Origin: an uncultured Lachnospiraceae bacterium
GTDB taxonomy: Bacteria; Bacillota; Clostridia; Lachnospirales; Lachnospiraceae
Length of the DNA stretch: 23,582 nucleotides
Assembly (NCBI GenBank): GCA_934370915.1
Contig: CAKRNI010000011.1
Coordinates: 1-23,582, forward strand
Reading direction: 5' to 3'
In this document: positions 4,001 to 9,799 of the stretch, piece by piece
How positions within the stretch are numbered: the first letter of the stretch is position 1
Layout: each line of letters opens with the position of its first letter
The notes under the pieces: model-generated
What the model was told of the DNA's origin: nothing
The model's input: only the letters and a program-made list of their open reading frames with translations
Database searches by the model: none
Program-made: the position numbers and the translations under genes

Positions 4001-7000
4001 TTATTCCATCCAGGCTCCATTCGAATCTACTTTGTATCCGTCTGGAGTAACTGTATTCACGAACAAATGTCCCTTATTCTGGCCAGAAACTGGTTCTAAA
4101 TAATACCATTTTCCATCAATCTTCTTCCATCCTGTTTCCATTCTGCCAAACCAGCCGTCAGAAATAGGATTCAGATAGAAATAGCATCCATTCCATTTCA
4201 ACCAGCCAGAAACCACATAGCCATTCTTGTCAAAATAGTACCACTCTTTTCGTCCCAAATATTCCAGTTCGCACCATTCATCATGTGGCCATGTACCATC
4301 TATTCTCTGATACCACCAGCCATTTTCATTTTTTATCCACTTTCCTGTTGCTCCTCGTTTCGGTATATAGGAGGTATCATCACTGTCGTCTGAACTATCC
4401 GAGCCACTATCTGATGCCCCTCTTACCGTAAATTTGGCAGTAAAGTTCTGCTCTTCCAATACTCTGAATCGGAACTCAAGTTCTTTTGATACACAATTGC
4501 CATCTTTATCATACCAGCCGACAAAACGATATCCACTATCTGGCTTTGCTGTTAATTTTGCAAAATCTCCACGAATTGCAGCTTTGCTTCCTTCAACAGT
4601 GCCATGTCCTTCTGCCGAAGCATTGATCAGATAACTTGTCAATGTATCCTGATATTCAGCCAACTCAATCTCTGTATTTTCTTTCAGAAGACGATATGAA
4701 TTATGCTCTTCACCATTATAGAACATTGATTCCGTAATTCCATAGAAATGATCCGTCTGATTAAGTGTCACAGCGCGATAGTCCGTCTTTCCAATCAAAC
4801 CCGAACCATCTGACGCAAACTCAGCAACAGAATAATCCATAGTTCCTGCAGCACGGGCAATAATCTCCAGTTTATATTTGCCATTCTGTGGAACGCCAAC
4901 GATCTTCTGTCCCGCAGAATCAACATATACGTCGATTTCATCATCCGTCACATTTTGCACCTGATCATTTACAATTTTCCCGACCATATTGTCGTTTTCA
5001 TCGTAAATAATAATATCTACCGGGCAGTTGGTTGCGTATCGGATTCCGCCTTTATCATAGAACTTATGGTTTGGATCTGTATCCGTAACTTCCGAAAATC
5101 CACTCTTTTCTCTGTCGTAAGCACCATCAGGTCCATAATACCGGTAGTCTTTTGGTCCAATTTCGATCCGGCTGTTTATTACTTTCCGGCCACGATTTAC
5201 TCCTGAATTTGAATCATAATAATATTCTTTGCCATTGATCTCAATCGGTCCAGTCTGCATTGCTCCACGATGATCCTTGTTATGTTCTGAGCCATCACCG
5301 GTGCTGAAGTAATATTCCCCTTCTCCGGTTTCATCCGTGATCTTCTGTGCTCCGACTAAAACCCGACCATTCTGATCAAAATAGTACCGTTTGCCATCAA
5401 TGTAGGCCCATCTGTTTTCTATGTAAAATCTCTCATCTCCATTCGTTCCATAGTAATATTTTTCTCCCGATTCATCCCATGAACCGGCAAATGTCAGAGG
5501 ACTGAACTCGTTTTCATAATAGTTTAACGGCGAGATTCTCTGAAGCTTATTAATTTCTTTCTGCAGAAAATCTACTTTAACTTGTTTCAGATTATCTCTA
5601 TTGTATATAGACGTATACACTGCTTTCATATTCTGATATCTCAAAAGCGTTATGCATCTCATAAATTCAAAGGCATTTAAATAGTCAGCTAAATTCTCTG
5701 AATTTCCGTCTATTAAAAACTTGTCCTCTTTTTCCCGAAGAACATCATACGCCACCGTATAAAGCATTTGCGACTGGGCAATCGTATTAACAGCCTCCGG
5801 TCTTCCATCAATTGTCTGGATCGTAGTAATGGCCTGACTGAATGTCTTGAGTAAAGGAAGACCTCCCTCCACAGATTTTTTTATAACATCCGTTGCAATC
5901 TTTGCCACATTATATTTCGGATTTTCTTTTGGGTCTTCTGTAAAAGTCCAGTCTGCTAATGGATTTTTTTCTCCGGTCACAACTTCATCCCACAAATTTG
6001 CCTGTTCTATTAGCGCAAAGCTGGTCTCAAGTACCTGGAATTTTATCTGTTTTTTATAATTACTCTTTAATTCCGAAACTGCATTCTTCAGCTTCTGAAT
6101 GTTTTGTACCTTTCTGGAGTCGATCTTATTAATTGACTCTTCCAGAGCATTCAGATAGCTTATTTTTTCTGAACAATCCTTAAGCGCGTCTGACCAGCCA
6201 TTCGCCTGTTCCATAATTACTTTAAATGTTTCATAACTCTGTTTTCCAACGCCCTCCAAAATTTTCTTTTTATTATTCTCTCCACTATCTTCTTTTTTCT
6301 TGACCTCCTTCGCCAATTTCTTAAATGAATTCGAATATTTTTTTTCATTTTTCGATGCGTCGGCAATTTTTTCTGCTATGAATTCGGCATATTCTACTTC
6401 ATCTATTACTTCATCCCAAGCATTAACCACTGCCTCCGGGGTTGGCTTTGCTTCCGTATTTTCCTGTCCCGGGAATTTTAAATCCATCATCTGAGCCAGG
6501 ATTTTTCTGTTATTTGACTCTTCCATTAAATACTCAACGTTTATATCATCAATATCCACATATCCACGCTGTTTTCTCAATGTCTGGAATACATACCCGG
6601 TCAATCTCATCCAGCCATCATCAATCTTGGCTGAAAGAATATACGATAAATAATTCATATCGTCCATATATGTTGAGATGAATGAATATCTGCTCATTAC
6701 TGTCGATGGACGAATATGGAACTGATCGTACTCCTCTTTTAGAATTTCATCCACTTCTTTATCCGGAACACACATTCCATATGGGTACACTCCATCTTCT
6801 TTGTCATAATAATACAGTCCTTTATCTATACCTGTTATAGCATAGCCGTTTTCATCAAATTTCCATTTACCAGTGAAAATCACGCCGTTTCCATCCGTGT
6901 AATTTAATTCACGTACACATGATTTCAGCAAATGGCACTGATTATTTTCAGAAATATAATATCCAACTTTACCATTTTCAAATTTTACCCAGCCTAACTG

Positions 7001-7780
7001 CTCATCGCTGTCTGGTATATCTGGATTGTCTGGCTGTTGCGGAACATCATTTTGGAATTGAAGGATTGGATATGGATATTCCCCTTCTCCCATTTTCCAC
7101 ACATTTTCAAAATCAAAATTTTCAAATGTGGATTGCTGTTCCATATCCTGTTCATTAATTGCTGTACCTACTGGTTCAGTTTCATCGCCGCTATATGTTC
7201 CTCCGTTCAAATAATATACATTTTCCTGTTCATGCAAATGTGCATTTGTCATTATACCTTTTGCACCTAAAATTTCTCCAACATATACATGTTCGCCTTT
7301 AATTTTAGCTTTCAACCCTGATGTATATTGAGAATTATATATGTTTTGTAGTTTCACCTGCCAATACACACCGACAATACCACCTATATGACACCAGTCG
7401 GCATAGTAGCTTGAATCAAATACTTCTTTAACATCAACTGTTATCTTTCCGGAATTATAGCAATCTAATAATATTCCTCGTCCACAACCTCCAATAAGTC
7501 CCCCAATAAATAAACCACGACTAGATTGGGCATTCTCTCTATCTCCAAACGTTATATTGATATTTCCTAAATTAGCACATTTTTCTATTTGCCGTTCCCA
7601 TACAGAACCACGTTGATAATCCGTTAGCGAAATCAATCCTCCAATGCACGTCATTACTCTCACTGAAGATGATAAGGAAATATCTCCCAGATTTAGGCAT
7701 TCAACTATATTATTTTGTGCATCACAATCCGTAGTACCCACCAGTCCTCCAATTTGAACATATGATAAACCGGATTTTTT
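4001..7780 (-). CDS. C-terminal part of the surface protein (GLUG, helical and cell-wall-binding regions)
   Basis: This frame is open from before the A-run to TAA at 4001-4003 and holds about 1,250 residues. The first residues after the run (SGLSYVQIGGLVG) continue the GLUG-like pattern of the upstream part. The only local start candidate, GTG at 7741, lies inside that conserved motif and has no obvious ribosome binding site or signal peptide, so independent translation is unlikely. The C-terminal 115 residues carry Trp/Tyr/Gly repeats (WYYFDKNGYVVSGW, GWKKIDGKWYYLEP) typical of choline-binding/CW_binding_1 modules. Confidence 0.75.
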   Translation of the reverse strand, partial: KKSGLSYVQIGGLVGTTDCDAQNNIVECLNLGDISLSSSVRVMTCIGGLISLTDYQRGSVWERQIEKCANLGNINITFGDRENAQSSRGLFIGGLIGGCGRGILLDCYNSGKITVDVKEVFDSSYYADWCHIGGIVGVYWQVKLQNIYNSQYTSGLKAKIKGEHVYVGEILGAKGIMTNAHLHEQENVYYLNGGTYSGDETEPVGTAINEQDMEQQSTFENFDFENVWKMGEGEYPYPILQFQNDVPQQPDNPDIPDSDEQLGWVKFENGKVGYYISENNQCHLLKSCVRELNYTDGNGVIFTGKWKFDENGYAITGIDKGLYYYDKEDGVYPYGMCVPDKEVDEILKEEYDQFHIRPSTVMSRYSFISTYMDDMNYLSYILSAKIDDGWMRLTGYVFQTLRKQRGYVDIDDINVEYLMEESNNRKILAQMMDLKFPGQENTEAKPTPEAVVNAWDEVIDEVEYAEFIAEKIADASKNEKKYSNSFKKLAKEVKKKEDSGENNKKKILEGVGKQSYETFKVIMEQANGWSDALKDCSEKISYLNALEESINKIDSRKVQNIQKLKNAVSELKSNYKKQIKFQVLETSFALIEQANLWDEVVTGEKNPLADWTFTEDPKENPKYNVAKIATDVIKKSVEGGLPLLKTFSQAITTIQTIDGRPEAVNTIAQSQMLYTVAYDVLREKEDKFLIDGNSENLADYLNAFEFMRCITLLRYQNMKAVYTSIYNRDNLKQVKVDFLQKEINKLQRISPLNYYENEFSPLTFAGSWDESGEKYYYGTNGDERFYIENRWAYIDGKRYYFDQNGRVLVGAQKITDETGEGEYYFSTGDGSEHNKDHRGAMQTGPIEINGKEYYYDSNSGVNRGRKVINSRIEIGPKDYRYYGPDGAYDREKSGFSEVTDTDPNHKFYDKGGIRYATNCPVDIIIYDENDNMVGKIVNDQVQNVTDDEIDVYVDSAGQKIVGVPQNGKYKLEIIARAAGTMDYSVAEFASDGSGLIGKTDYRAVTLNQTDHFYGITESMFYNGEEHNSYRLLKENTEIELAEYQDTLTSYLINASAEGHGTVEGSKAAIRGDFAKLTAKPDSGYRFVGWYDKDGNCVSKELEFRFRVLEEQNFTAKFTVRGASDSGSDSSDDSDDTSYIPKRGATGKWIKNENGWWYQRIDGTWPHDEWCELEYLGRKEWYYFDKNGYVVSGWLKWNGCYFYLNPISDGWFGRMETGWKKIDGKWYYLEPVSGQNKGHLFVNTVTPDGYKVDSNGAWME

Positions 7781-9012
7781 TCCTTTAAAGCGACTCTAAT
7801 ATCTCCCTTATTAATACATTTACTAATTTGGGCATATTCTATAGTATATGCTACTGGTGCTATATATACGTCAGTTACATTTTCTAAAGAATCGAAAGAG
7901 ATATCAATTTCATTGATGATATTTGTTATTTCTGCTTTATATCCAGATATACTACATGCCAGAACACTTAAAGTAATAATATCGGACACCCAAAATCTGT
8001 TTGTCTCTGAAAGAATACTAGTATCATGGAAAGAAAGTTCACCATCAAATTTTATATTTCTTACTACACCAGAATTTATATTTTGAAATATACTAAAGCT
8101 CCAATTGAATTCTTTTTTATACGAGCCATTCCAATTAGGCGTATCATTATTTATGTTAATATCGCCGTTCAAAGTAATTATATGGTTATTTCCATCCAGT
8201 GTACCTCTAAATGCTGTGTCTTTATCACTTCCATCTAAAGGAAATTCATTTATATATTCCGATAGATCTATATCATTCATTAATTTATACGTTCCATCTA
8301 AATTATTCTTGATAGAAACAAACTCTTCCGCCGTATAAATCGGAATCCATTCCTCTGCCTGCACCACAGCGATTCCATAAACCGAAAATCCTACCGATTG
8401 GCAGCTAATCTCTTGATCTCCTTCTACTGTCTTCGGAACAAATTCAGCAACATCTTCCCCATCTCTCACATGGAAAATTTCTGATCCATCGACTTGTTCT
8501 CCAGTCATGGTATCCGGGAATTTAAACGTTACCTTCACTCCATCAGACGGTTCAAACTCTTCCCCATCATTCCAGAATGAAATATCATAGGCATAAATCT
8601 GTTCAAGTTCTTTTTGATTTTCCTGCATTGATGAGCGCACAGAATCTGTGATCTCAGATCCTAAATCGACCTTTTTCACCTGGATCTGTGTGTTTTCCGG
8701 CAGAATGACATCCTGTGAGTCTATCTCAACAATAATTCCATCTTCTGTCGTAAACTGTTTTTTTAATCCTGTTGTTTCAGTTGGTTTATTTGTTGTATTT
8801 TCTGTTGCCGCATTGCTTGATGTCATAAGCTCTACCGCATTGCTCGGCGTCAATAACCCCAACTCATCCCAAAAGCTGCTCTCTTCCTTCTCCACATTGG
8901 CAGTTTTGTCCTGATTCGTATTTTCAAACGCCCAGGAAATTCCACTGTTTCCAAATATGGTTCCTATGGACAAGCTTATTGCCAGTCCCCATGCCAGATA
9001 TTGTTTCTTCAT
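7705..9012 (-). CDS. N-terminal part of the surface protein as read without frameshift
   Basis: This is the 435-residue product made if the ribosome stays in the first frame. It carries the signal peptide (MKKQYLAWGLAISLSIG..., hydrophobic core then SWA), the linker, and the first GLUG-like region (for example FRGTLDGNNHIITL). After the A-run it adds about 24 out-of-frame residues ending in HKII and stops. It would be secreted but would lack all cell-wall-binding repeats, so it would not be anchored. A longer reading from 9105 has no ribosome binding site and would bury the signal peptide, so ATG 9012 was chosen. Confidence 0.75.
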   Translation of the reverse strand: MKKQYLAWGLAISLSIGTIFGNSGISWAFENTNQDKTANVEKEESSFWDELGLLTPSNAVELMTSSNAATENTTNKPTETTGLKKQFTTEDGIIVEIDSQDVILPENTQIQVKKVDLGSEITDSVRSSMQENQKELEQIYAYDISFWNDGEEFEPSDGVKVTFKFPDTMTGEQVDGSEIFHVRDGEDVAEFVPKTVEGDQEISCQSVGFSVYGIAVVQAEEWIPIYTAEEFVSIKNNLDGTYKLMNDIDLSEYINEFPLDGSDKDTAFRGTLDGNNHIITLNGDININNDTPNWNGSYKKEFNWSFSIFQNINSGVVRNIKFDGELSFHDTSILSETNRFWVSDIITLSVLACSISGYKAEITNIINEIDISFDSLENVTDVYIAPVAYTIEYAQISKCINKGDIRVALKEKNPVYHMFKLEDWWVLRIVMHKII

Positions 9013-9052
9013 ACAATTCCTCCCTGTGGTCCACTTTTTTCGTTTAGACACA

Positions 9053-9070
9053 AATTGTAATGTAACAATT
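9053..9070. promoter_or_regulatory. Inverted repeat upstream of the surface-protein gene
   Basis: AATTGT (9053-9058) and ACAATT (9065-9070) are complementary around 6 bases, about 40 bases upstream of the start codon at 9012. It lies where the promoter should be, though no convincing -35/-10 pair was found. It could be an operator. Confidence 0.3.
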
Positions 9071-9162
9071 GAAGAAACTAAAAAGCAGGGGTGCAAAGAT
9101 TCCACTTCATACTCCTGCTGTCATTTTCTGTACAACAAATAGACTCCTACCCCATTTCCATC

Positions 9163-9191
9163 TTGTCTATTATTATTATTTCGACTATAAT
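9163..9191 (+). promoter_or_regulatory. Promoter of the RNA candidate
   Basis: TTGTCT (9163-9168) and a perfect TATAAT (9186-9191) are separated by 17 bases. The predicted start, G at 9197 or 9198, coincides with the first base of the closing helix of the RNA candidate. Confidence 0.7.
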
Positions 9192-9196
9192 GGAAT

Positions 9197-9293
9197 GGCA
9201 TAGTAGTGGCGCAACCATTGTGAGAAGTGTCCCTTAAACACTTTTCACATCTGCAAGGGTGTTGGTAGCACCCTTGCAGATGCTATGCTTTTT
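9197..9293 (+). ncRNA. Candidate structured small RNA with four-helix junction and own terminator
   Basis: About 97 bases fold by eye into a compact cloverleaf. P1 pairs GCATAG (9198-9203) with CTATGC (9283-9288). P2 pairs AGTGG (9205-9209) with CCATT (9215-9219), with one G-U pair. P3 pairs 9221-9230 with 9238-9247, 10 bp with one G-U, 7-base loop. P4 pairs 9248-9261 with 9269-9282, a perfect 14 bp with 7-base loop. Only one or two bases are left unpaired at the junction. TTTTT (9289-9293) follows P1 directly, as in an intrinsic terminator. A promoter ends 6 bases upstream. It has no T-loop signature, so it does not look like a tRNA. I do not recognise the family. No plus-strand gene follows for more than 6 kb, so it is not a leader. 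Confidence 0.6.
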
Positions 9294-9431
9294 AGTTTTC
9301 TATGTTCATTCTAACACGGACGTAAAACATATTCAACTATATTTATCTATGTTGCTTTCCGATTATTTATGCAATTTATGCTAAATTGGCGATGCTGGAA
9401 ACGAAATGTCCCATACGAAATACGCCAATAG
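9294..9431. other. AT-rich spacer without recognised features
   Basis: Nothing supportable was seen between the RNA candidate and the ribosomal operon terminator. There are short stop-rich frames on both strands and no strong hairpin. Confidence 0.5.
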
Positions 9432-9466
9432 AAAAAAGCCCCTGTGTGATCTCTCACATAGGGGCT
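9432..9466 (-). terminator. Rho-independent terminator of the rpsF-ssb-rpsR operon
   Basis: Thirteen-base arms (9437-9449 and 9454-9466, one G-U pair) enclose a TCTC loop. On minus they are followed by six U residues (complement of 9432-9437). It lies about 67 bases past the rpsR stop codon. Confidence 0.92.
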
Positions 9467-9532
9467 CGAATGATGCTTCAAATTAATTAGATAAAACCTT
9501 ACTTTATCAGTGAAAATCCTTATTCTAAGGAA

Positions 9533-9799
9533 TTATTCACATGTGTACGGCATAAGAGCGATATGACGTGCTCTCTTGATAGCTACTGTTAAAGCTCTCT
9601 GGTGCTTTGCGCAGTTGCCTGTGATTCTTCTCGGGAGGATTTTTCCTCTCTCGGATACGTATCTCTTTAACTTGTTTACGTCCTTGTAATCGATCTCGCC
9701 GTTCTTATCGCCGCAGAATACGCAAACTTTTTTTCTTCTATGCATGCCGCCTCTTCTTACTCTGGAAGAATCGGACTTGTCACCTTTATTGAATGCCAT
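9533..9799 (-). CDS. rpsR: 30S ribosomal protein S18
   Basis: The 88-residue basic protein matches S18 in length and in core sequence ([50 protein letters not shown]). S18 binds the small ribosomal subunit platform as a pair with S6. An upstream extension with Cys residues ([18 protein letters not shown]) is typical of Clostridia. The start at 9799 has GGAGG 9 bases upstream. It is the last gene of the rpsF-ssb-rpsR operon and ends before a strong terminator. Confidence 0.97.

Follow-up and report, generated by a model that had tools for sequence, protein, structure and literature searches.

A patchily distributed small RNA of Lachnospiraceae-type genomes, predicted to act as a cis-antisense attenuator of an adjacent gene for a probable surface protein

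The window analysed here is a stretch of 23,582 nucleotides from an uncultured Lachnospiraceae bacterium (contig CAKRNI010000011.1), a short segment of which had been singled out as an unassigned small RNA, folded into a four-helix cloverleaf and provided with its own promoter and terminator. The question raised by this locus is what such an RNA is and on what it could act. The reading that we favour, and that the sequences make moderately probable, is a chromosomal cis-antisense RNA which uses transcription attenuation to turn down the adjacent gene, that of a probable surface protein. The features of the small RNA itself are as follows.

9163..9191, plus strand: promoter TTGTCT-17-TATAAT of the small RNA, recurring across copies
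9197..9296, plus strand: putative antisense small RNA, a four-helix cloverleaf, with its 3' end expected in the U-tract 9289-9302
9197-9204/9282-9289, plus strand: helix P1, 8 bp in the minimum free energy (MFE) structure
9205-9209/9215-9219, plus strand: helix P2, 5 bp in the MFE structure
9220-9230/9238-9248, plus strand: helix P3, 11 bp in the MFE structure
9249-9263/9267-9281, plus strand: helix P4, 15 bp in the MFE structure

The promoter is found where the original prediction had placed it, at 9163-9191 on the plus strand. Taken alone it is unremarkable, the 701-base stretch around the small RNA holding 3 promoter-like sites compared to 2.3 expected in shuffles; it becomes more credible because the TATAAT of the -10 box and the TTG of the -35 box are present in 18 of 18 homologous copies, with a spacing of 17 (18 in G336) and with the -35 box of G428a identified by eye. 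Since the -10 box is contained in R1, one of the search models described below, its conservation was partly selected for. The RNA 9197-9293 has an MFE of -50.3 kcal/mol and folds into the four-helix cloverleaf, followed by U's, while 200 dinucleotide shuffles average -24.6 kcal/mol with none as stable (z -7.61). Hence the cloverleaf stands, with P1, P3 and P4 slightly longer than the 6, 10 and 14 bp given at first and P2 equal at 5 bp, and three homologues show the same fold with z from -7.4 to -9.5. As was also claimed, no gene lies directly downstream on the plus strand, the next likely gene being at 9533-9799 on the minus strand.

No Rfam family (release 15) reaches its gathering threshold anywhere in the window, in agreement with the failure to recognise a family at the outset; the best weak match near the small RNA, rivX, scores 22.4 bits for a threshold of 100, and such matches are at chance level. 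A search for tRNA and tmRNA gave nothing. A coding role was rejected as well, given that the GTG-started ORF seen in some copies ends after five codons in the window.

In total, 17 homologous copies were found in 13 other genomes, with at most three per genome, which together with the window makes 18 copies (17 distinct). The SSB protein of the window was used as query and the best 80 of 571 relatives were considered, most of them with titles naming Lachnospiraceae, Clostridium or the like; L027, nearest in SSB identity (93%), has no small-RNA copy behind rpsR. A DNA search of 397 genomes from the family of L027 gave matches at E <= 0.05 in 26, of which three were kept at 78-81% identity (G373 and G121 over approximately the whole RNA, G336 over 75 of 111 bases), the other 23 showing short pieces only (at most 44 query bases) and being left out. 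These three sequences and the window formed the covariance model R1. Scanning with R1 gave a copy in one of 9 genomes of the genus of G373 (G373 itself), in 8 of 26 genomes of the genus of G121 at E <= 0.01 (7 of 26 after rejection of G432), in 5 of 50 genomes drawn from those behind the 80 loci (among them G417, already known) and in 3 of 24 genomes of the genus of G443, all previously known. Clostridium sp. AT4 and strain 1XD21-29 carry one copy each. In the 397-genome family sample R1 returned G121, G373, G336 and a 27-bit match in G001. The latter, on contig C5, and the 25.5-bit match on contig C49 of G432 were rejected as hairpins that lack the conserved motifs, and minus-strand matches of 17-40 bits, located at true copies, arise from reading the cloverleaf in reverse. 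A second model, R2, built from all 18 sequences and scoring the window, one of them, at 94 bits, added no copy, as it returned G438 alone among 17 genomes of its genus, G121 alone among 392 order-wide and G336 alone in a scan of one. Scans of more than 40 genomes were run with stricter filters, so that weak copies may be missed. The distribution of the small RNA is patchy.

The alignment of the 18 copies (A5; 29 pairs scored, the lower part of P3 left unscored) shows that the two sides of the helices change together. Indeed, 97.4% of the cells pair and 51 cells carry two-sided changes compared to 12.7 in shuffles, figures that are not probabilities since the structure was derived from the aligned sequences and the copies are related. 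When the partner is shifted by one to three columns, pairing falls to 24-53%. The two-sided changes fall in 13 of the 29 pairs, that is 12 of the 14 pairs of P4 and one in P3; P2 is invariant and P1 shows a one-sided change at a single pair, neither being informative, and by eye two mismatches are present in the lower P3 of G427a, G427b and G428b. In the sense of the small RNA, P4 has 16 G.U cells vs 3 A.C cells, which suggests that it is selected as RNA on that strand.

The small RNA faces a second promoter and the gene that this promoter would serve:

9308..9336, minus strand: predicted promoter of the neighbouring mRNA, TTGAAT-17-TAGAAT with an extended -10 TGT and a predicted start at ~ 9301
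9013..9301, minus strand: predicted untranslated mRNA leader, complementary over its initial ~ 105 nt to the small RNA
7705..9012, minus strand: first ORF of the putatively regulated gene, 435 aa, with a signal-peptide-like N terminus by eye
4001..7741, minus strand: 1246-aa second ORF, in a different frame, carrying InlB B-repeat and choline-binding repeats

A gene-strand promoter lies directly 3' of the small RNA in 18 of 18 copies (TTG---, 17 nt, extended -10 with TGn); 14 were chosen by the script and those of G427a, G427b, G428b and G414b were read by eye, the other site proposed by the script scoring equally. As the predicted mRNA start in the window falls within the complement of the small-RNA U-tail, the mRNA would open with ~ 105 nt of exact complement to the small RNA. 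In all copies but that of G336 (17 of 18) the small RNA and the nearest gene clearly diverge; in G336 an exported-protein ORF begins after ~ 630 nt, and a possible ORF of 114 aa stands between the two. Thus the small-RNA gene holds as a structured unit with promoter and terminator of its own; as a free-standing gene it most likely does not, because the opposed minus-strand promoter would make it antisense to the mRNA of its neighbour.

By eye, the N terminus of the first gene resembles that of an exported protein in 10 of the 17 loci that have a leader terminator; in G121, G414b, G417 and G444 a smaller first gene (108-176 aa) is followed by an exported-protein gene, and the first genes of G427a, G427b and G428b share another N terminus. 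In Pfam scans of 14 of the 18 loci, choline-binding repeats were found at E <= 0.01 in six (window, G373, G428a, G428b, G427c and G438), at or above the curated cut-off in four of these (window, G373, G428a and G428b), and a transglutaminase core in G121; the other loci scanned gave no family match. In the window the ORFs 7705-9012 and 4001-7741 on the minus strand overlap in different frames, which may reflect a fault of the assembly or a gene that is truly broken; the second ORF probably continues the first, within one gene interrupted by a change of frame. The window copy adjoins genes read by eye as rpsR, ssb and rpsF. At ~ 9435-9467 on the minus strand, behind the likely rpsR, an inverted repeat followed by T's can be seen by eye, a probable terminator parting the rpsR operon from the promoter of the gene next to the small RNA. 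In G414a, G417, G413 and G449 (L137, L145, L146 and L159) a serine-recombinase-like gene, again by eye, stands beside the exported-protein genes, ~ 1.4-2.7 kb from the small RNA on the side and strand of the gene.

Folding and alignment of the 17 leaders (A4) revealed, besides a terminator, an antiterminator and three further helices, P5, AT2 and P0. In the window they are:

9084..9119, minus strand: predicted intrinsic leader terminator (5' arm 9119-9108, 3' arm 9092-9084), upstream of the ribosome-binding site
9130..9139, minus strand: antiterminator 5' arm (TTTGTTGTAC), from leader folding and arm matching
9114..9123, minus strand: antiterminator 3' arm, overlapping the terminator 5' arm
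9199..9207, minus strand: P5 5' arm, overlapping the P1 strand of the cloverleaf and hence competing with P1
9143..9149, minus strand: P5 3' arm, within the conserved segment around GGAGTTTATTTGTTGTAC
9220..9227, minus strand: pre-emptor-like AT2 arm, complement of the small-RNA P3 5' arm, which can pair with 9103-9110 in the terminator
9287..9301, minus strand: P0 5' arm, the 5' end of the mRNA, pairing with the terminator U-tract 9072-9086
9072..9086, minus strand: P0 3' arm, containing the leader-terminator U-tract

Of the 18 copies, 17 have the terminator hairpin and its U-tract in the interval from the small-RNA promoter to the gene (G336 has none), and the hairpin of the window shows the smallest folding gain among the 17 leaders. 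The gene starts 28-68 nt behind it in 15 of 17 and 331 nt behind it in G438, a start being the first start codon with a ribosome-binding-site-like motif that the script met (in G428a its frame differs from that of the 346-aa ORF). In G438 (L158) the terminator 5' arm is weakened and the next gene is more than 300 nt off, possibly a decaying copy. Because the antiterminator uses the terminator 5' arm, the two hairpins are mutually exclusive.

The arms were compared, as cognate vs permuted pairs, in 11 group representatives (groups set by eye) with 20,000 permutations; p < 0.001 was attained by none of 250 control segment pairs, p < 0.01 by 1.2% and 0.05 by 10%. P0 pairs at -14.8 with its cognate vs -10.0 when permuted and P5 at -17.2 vs -12.4, no permutation being as good in either case (outer part of P5, p 0.0003); the antiterminator gives -7.2 vs -5.5 (p 0.0001) and the terminator arms match within loci at p 0.0001. 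AT2, the helix of the mRNA P3 3' arm with the terminator 5' arm, matches at p 0.009 and is marginal, since 1.2% of the control pairs go below 0.01. Column counts are high for P0 (24 two-sided cells vs 8.0 in shuffles) and modest for the antiterminator (6 vs 2.5; its 3 pairs with such changes were equalled in 126 of 500 shuffles) and the terminator (3 vs 0.5). On the mRNA strand the G.U to A.C ratio is 47:9 for the antiterminator, 30 of these 47 G.U cells coming from two columns where every standard pair is U.G, 17:0 for P5 and 11:1 for the terminator. P0 has no strand bias (10 G.U vs 7 A.C). Its arms, 9287-9301 and 9072-9086, form an inverted repeat of ~ 15 bp that spans the whole unit and covaries between loci. 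As P0 pairs the 5' end of the mRNA with the terminator U-tract, it cannot act before termination; its role may be message stability or that of a DNA site.

In the P3 loops of the mRNA, TTGGCG occurs in 10 of 18 copies. UUGGCG is a sequence of plasmid antisense targets, for which a literature search gave no confirmation. YUNR, which U-rich loops often carry by chance, is present in 18 of 18 of these loops and is described as the U-turn motif of loop-loop antisense systems (PMC4485353).

The leaders were then considered as folding ensembles. For the 17 whole leaders the mean terminator probability rises from 0.46 when free to 0.96 when the 5' region is blocked, by more than 0.1 in 14 of 17 (from 0.14 to 0.50 in the window), and the mean antiterminator probability falls from 0.49 to 0.04 when the 5' region is sequestered. 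When free, the antiterminator is at 0.12 or above in 12 of 17 leaders and at 0.02 or below in G428a, G433, G413, G417 and G449; G413, G417 and G449 remain terminated whether the 5' region is free or blocked. If the 5' region is exchanged for shuffled sequence, the mean terminator probability is 0.93, hence the native 5' region opposes the terminator in these models. If the 15-nt P0 arm is left native and everything else in the 5' region is shuffled, the mean over the 17 leaders is 0.46, equal to the native value, so that P0 alone carries the whole-leader effect. When the U-tract is kept single-stranded to mimic a paused complex, the mean goes from 0.84 to 0.93 only, and in the window blocking the 5' region moves the terminator from 0.67 to 0.01, opposite to expectation. 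Before the terminator 3' arm is made, blocking leaves the antiterminator about unchanged (means of 0.64 and 0.62). In these calculations, folding energies would back the switch for finished leaders only, through the single long-range helix P0; the putative switch is supported by anatomy and covariation and not by the energies of the nascent state.

The mechanism that we propose for the antisense RNA would be the following. The mRNA of the neighbour would start at ~ 9301 on the minus strand, its first ~ 105 nt being complementary to the small RNA. In an undisturbed leader the antiterminator hairpin (9139-9130 with 9123-9114), P5 and the long-range helices that join the 5' region to the terminator would form, and the polymerase would read into the gene. 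The small RNA would pair with the nascent 5' region, probably through a loop-loop contact first, the 5' helices would be lost, and the terminator at 9119-9084 would win, stopping transcription before the start codon. What can be read directly from the sequences is a conserved RNA structure, opposed promoters, full complementarity and a conserved terminator with a mutually exclusive antiterminator. That the cell produces both RNAs, that the two pair there and that termination follows from their pairing is what we infer from these features.

An RNA that is cis-antisense to the leader could also repress by RNase III cleavage of the duplex, polymerase collision or altered translation, the leader hairpin being fixed or otherwise controlled. 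The complete overlap of the two opposed promoters would fit with this, as would the small effect on termination in the nascent-state model and the reduction of the whole-leader effect to P0 alone; on the other hand a fixed terminator would have no need of a conserved, locus-matched terminator together with a mutually exclusive antiterminator, and we regard these other routes as unlikely, though deserving real weight. Activation is very improbable in our judgement. Here the conserved UUUUCACACCU of the small RNA would pair with the terminator 5' arm AGGUGUGA and break the terminator, and the predicted duplexes are indeed of -15 to -22 kcal/mol, but the small-RNA segment involved is buried in the stable P3/P4 and the opening of the terminator in trans was rejected for want of any preference for the cognate partner (p 0.74), whereas pairing of the terminator arm in cis does prefer its cognate (p 0.024). 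This favours local control through the leader, as far as sequences can indicate it.

The same holds for the terminator hairpins found elsewhere. An earlier leader pattern was too strict; a second, exact terminator pattern worked and gave 15 distinct sites in 13 genomes (12 with a copy, and G001), 14 of them adjoining a small-RNA copy, although it missed 2 of 16 known leaders of the searched genomes (G428b and G438), so that more targets are possible. The fifteenth site, G427:C2:84321 (L141, 6319-6360 on the minus strand), is a leader-terminator hairpin that precedes, in the same operon, an apparently broken exported-protein gene copy, and R2 gave no small RNA there above chance level. A free-standing, trans-acting RNA next to these genes by chance, which the possession of its own promoter and terminator might suggest, is thus hard to reconcile with a single additional leader-like hairpin, with the divergent arrangement in 17 of 18 copies and with an opposing promoter that sets the mRNA start in the small-RNA tail in all 18; little credence is left for it. 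As little can be given to a DNA element, in which the 13-15 bp inverted repeat P0 would be a recombination site or the end of a mobile element and the hairpins by-products. It is true that the two tails match within loci (identity sum of 220 vs a permuted mean of 181, with 0 of 20,000 permutations as high), that P0 has no strand bias and that serine-recombinase-like genes were seen by eye ~ 2 kb off in four loci. However, all 17 leader-terminator units are oriented alike relative to the gene, the repeat encloses one of the two promoters and leaves out the other, and the G.U bias of terminator, antiterminator and P5 points to RNA. Phage and plasmid records gave no match for the two copies searched (window and G414a), which, with the single orientation, speaks against the transposon end that had been named as the case to exclude. 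In viral contigs, four exact 16-mer matches came without the rest of the element, a longer pattern found none and a loose pattern found 70 stretches, the best of 22.1 bits with R2.

A further extension of the attenuation reading, speculative and in our view quite unlikely, is that the copies within a genome form a network of antisense attenuators, in which the often alike P3 loops would let copies repress each other and the variable P4 helices and loops would set the strength of each, so that cells of a population would express different surface proteins, in a manner likened to plasmid incompatibility groups.

Two other kinds of system were compared. No small hydrophobic toxin, as in type I toxin-antitoxin systems, was met in the 17 leader-terminator loci, whose first gene has at least 108 aa (two are cut by the contig end). 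The cwpV type is a site-specific invertible switch; a second orientation was absent here, 17 of 17 units having one orientation in a sample of one genome per species.

Antisense-driven transcription attenuation is known mainly from plasmids. If the attenuation reading is true, this repeated, patchy family would mean that the principle was taken up in Lachnospiraceae-type genomes for exported, probably surface proteins, and would offer a directly testable rule for the timing of surface-protein production in these bacteria. It would also be a natural set of divergent attenuators, such as synthetic biologists are described as building by hand from pT181 (PMC3753616).

The closest model in anatomy is pT181 of Staphylococcus plasmids, where, in the passages cited, the 87-nt RNAI is counter-transcribed to the untranslated repC leader, a terminator-like stem-loop lies directly before the start codon and a pre-emptor pairs with its 5' arm (PMC5703833). 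The present loci have in common with it an antisense RNA complementary to an untranslated leader (~ 105 nt with opposed promoters, as predicted from sequence), an intrinsic terminator ahead of the start codon (17 of 18 copies) and an antiterminator or pre-emptor on the terminator 5' arm (p 0.0001 for the antiterminator and 0.009 for AT2). As for termination raised by the antisense RNA, the models give 0.46 to 0.96 for whole leaders, through P0, and 0.84 to 0.93 for the nascent state, with the window reversed. In contrast to pT181, the genes targeted are other than replication genes, the copy of the window adjoins a ribosomal-protein operon, and the small RNA is a closed four-helix cloverleaf without an Rfam family.

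In the account cited, Anti-Q of pCF10 (prgQ, Enterococcus) is likewise a countertranscript RNA, favouring the terminator IRS1 ahead of a surface-adhesin operon (PMC8265641), but that system is plasmid-borne, with a peptide pheromone as input, PrgX and a target operon of ~ 30 kb including a T4SS. RnaG of the Shigella plasmid pINV, as described in the part cited, is an antisense RNA that attenuates icsA through a Rho-independent, that is intrinsic, terminator (PMC5394118). It differs from the present RNA in being 450 nt long, transcribed within icsA and plasmid-borne, with the VirF protein as relief factor. RNAIII of pIP501 has an RNA structure different from that of the present small RNA and serves plasmid copy control. 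According to the source cited for pT181 it shares with our loci the antisense-driven attenuation of a leader, that of repR (PMC5703833). RCd2 of Clostridium difficile, compared by its description in the passages cited, is a cis-antisense RNA over the 5' end of a putative cell wall hydrolase gene (PMC3649979); it overlaps the 3' end of a second gene too, and a leader terminator is absent from that description. The RNA surveys of C. difficile and S. agalactiae report many cis-antisense RNAs, none of which is described with such a leader in the passages cited (PMC3649979, PMC4448216), and the best matches in open-licence PubMed Central for antisense RNA, Lachnospiraceae, surface proteins, attenuation and cis-antisense leaders gave no title or abstract describing this small-RNA family. 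Hence the family and its target are new and the principle of antisense attenuation is already known: by anatomy the small RNA appears to be like pT181 RNAI, Anti-Q and RnaG, from which its lack of an Rfam match, its targets and its hosts set it apart.
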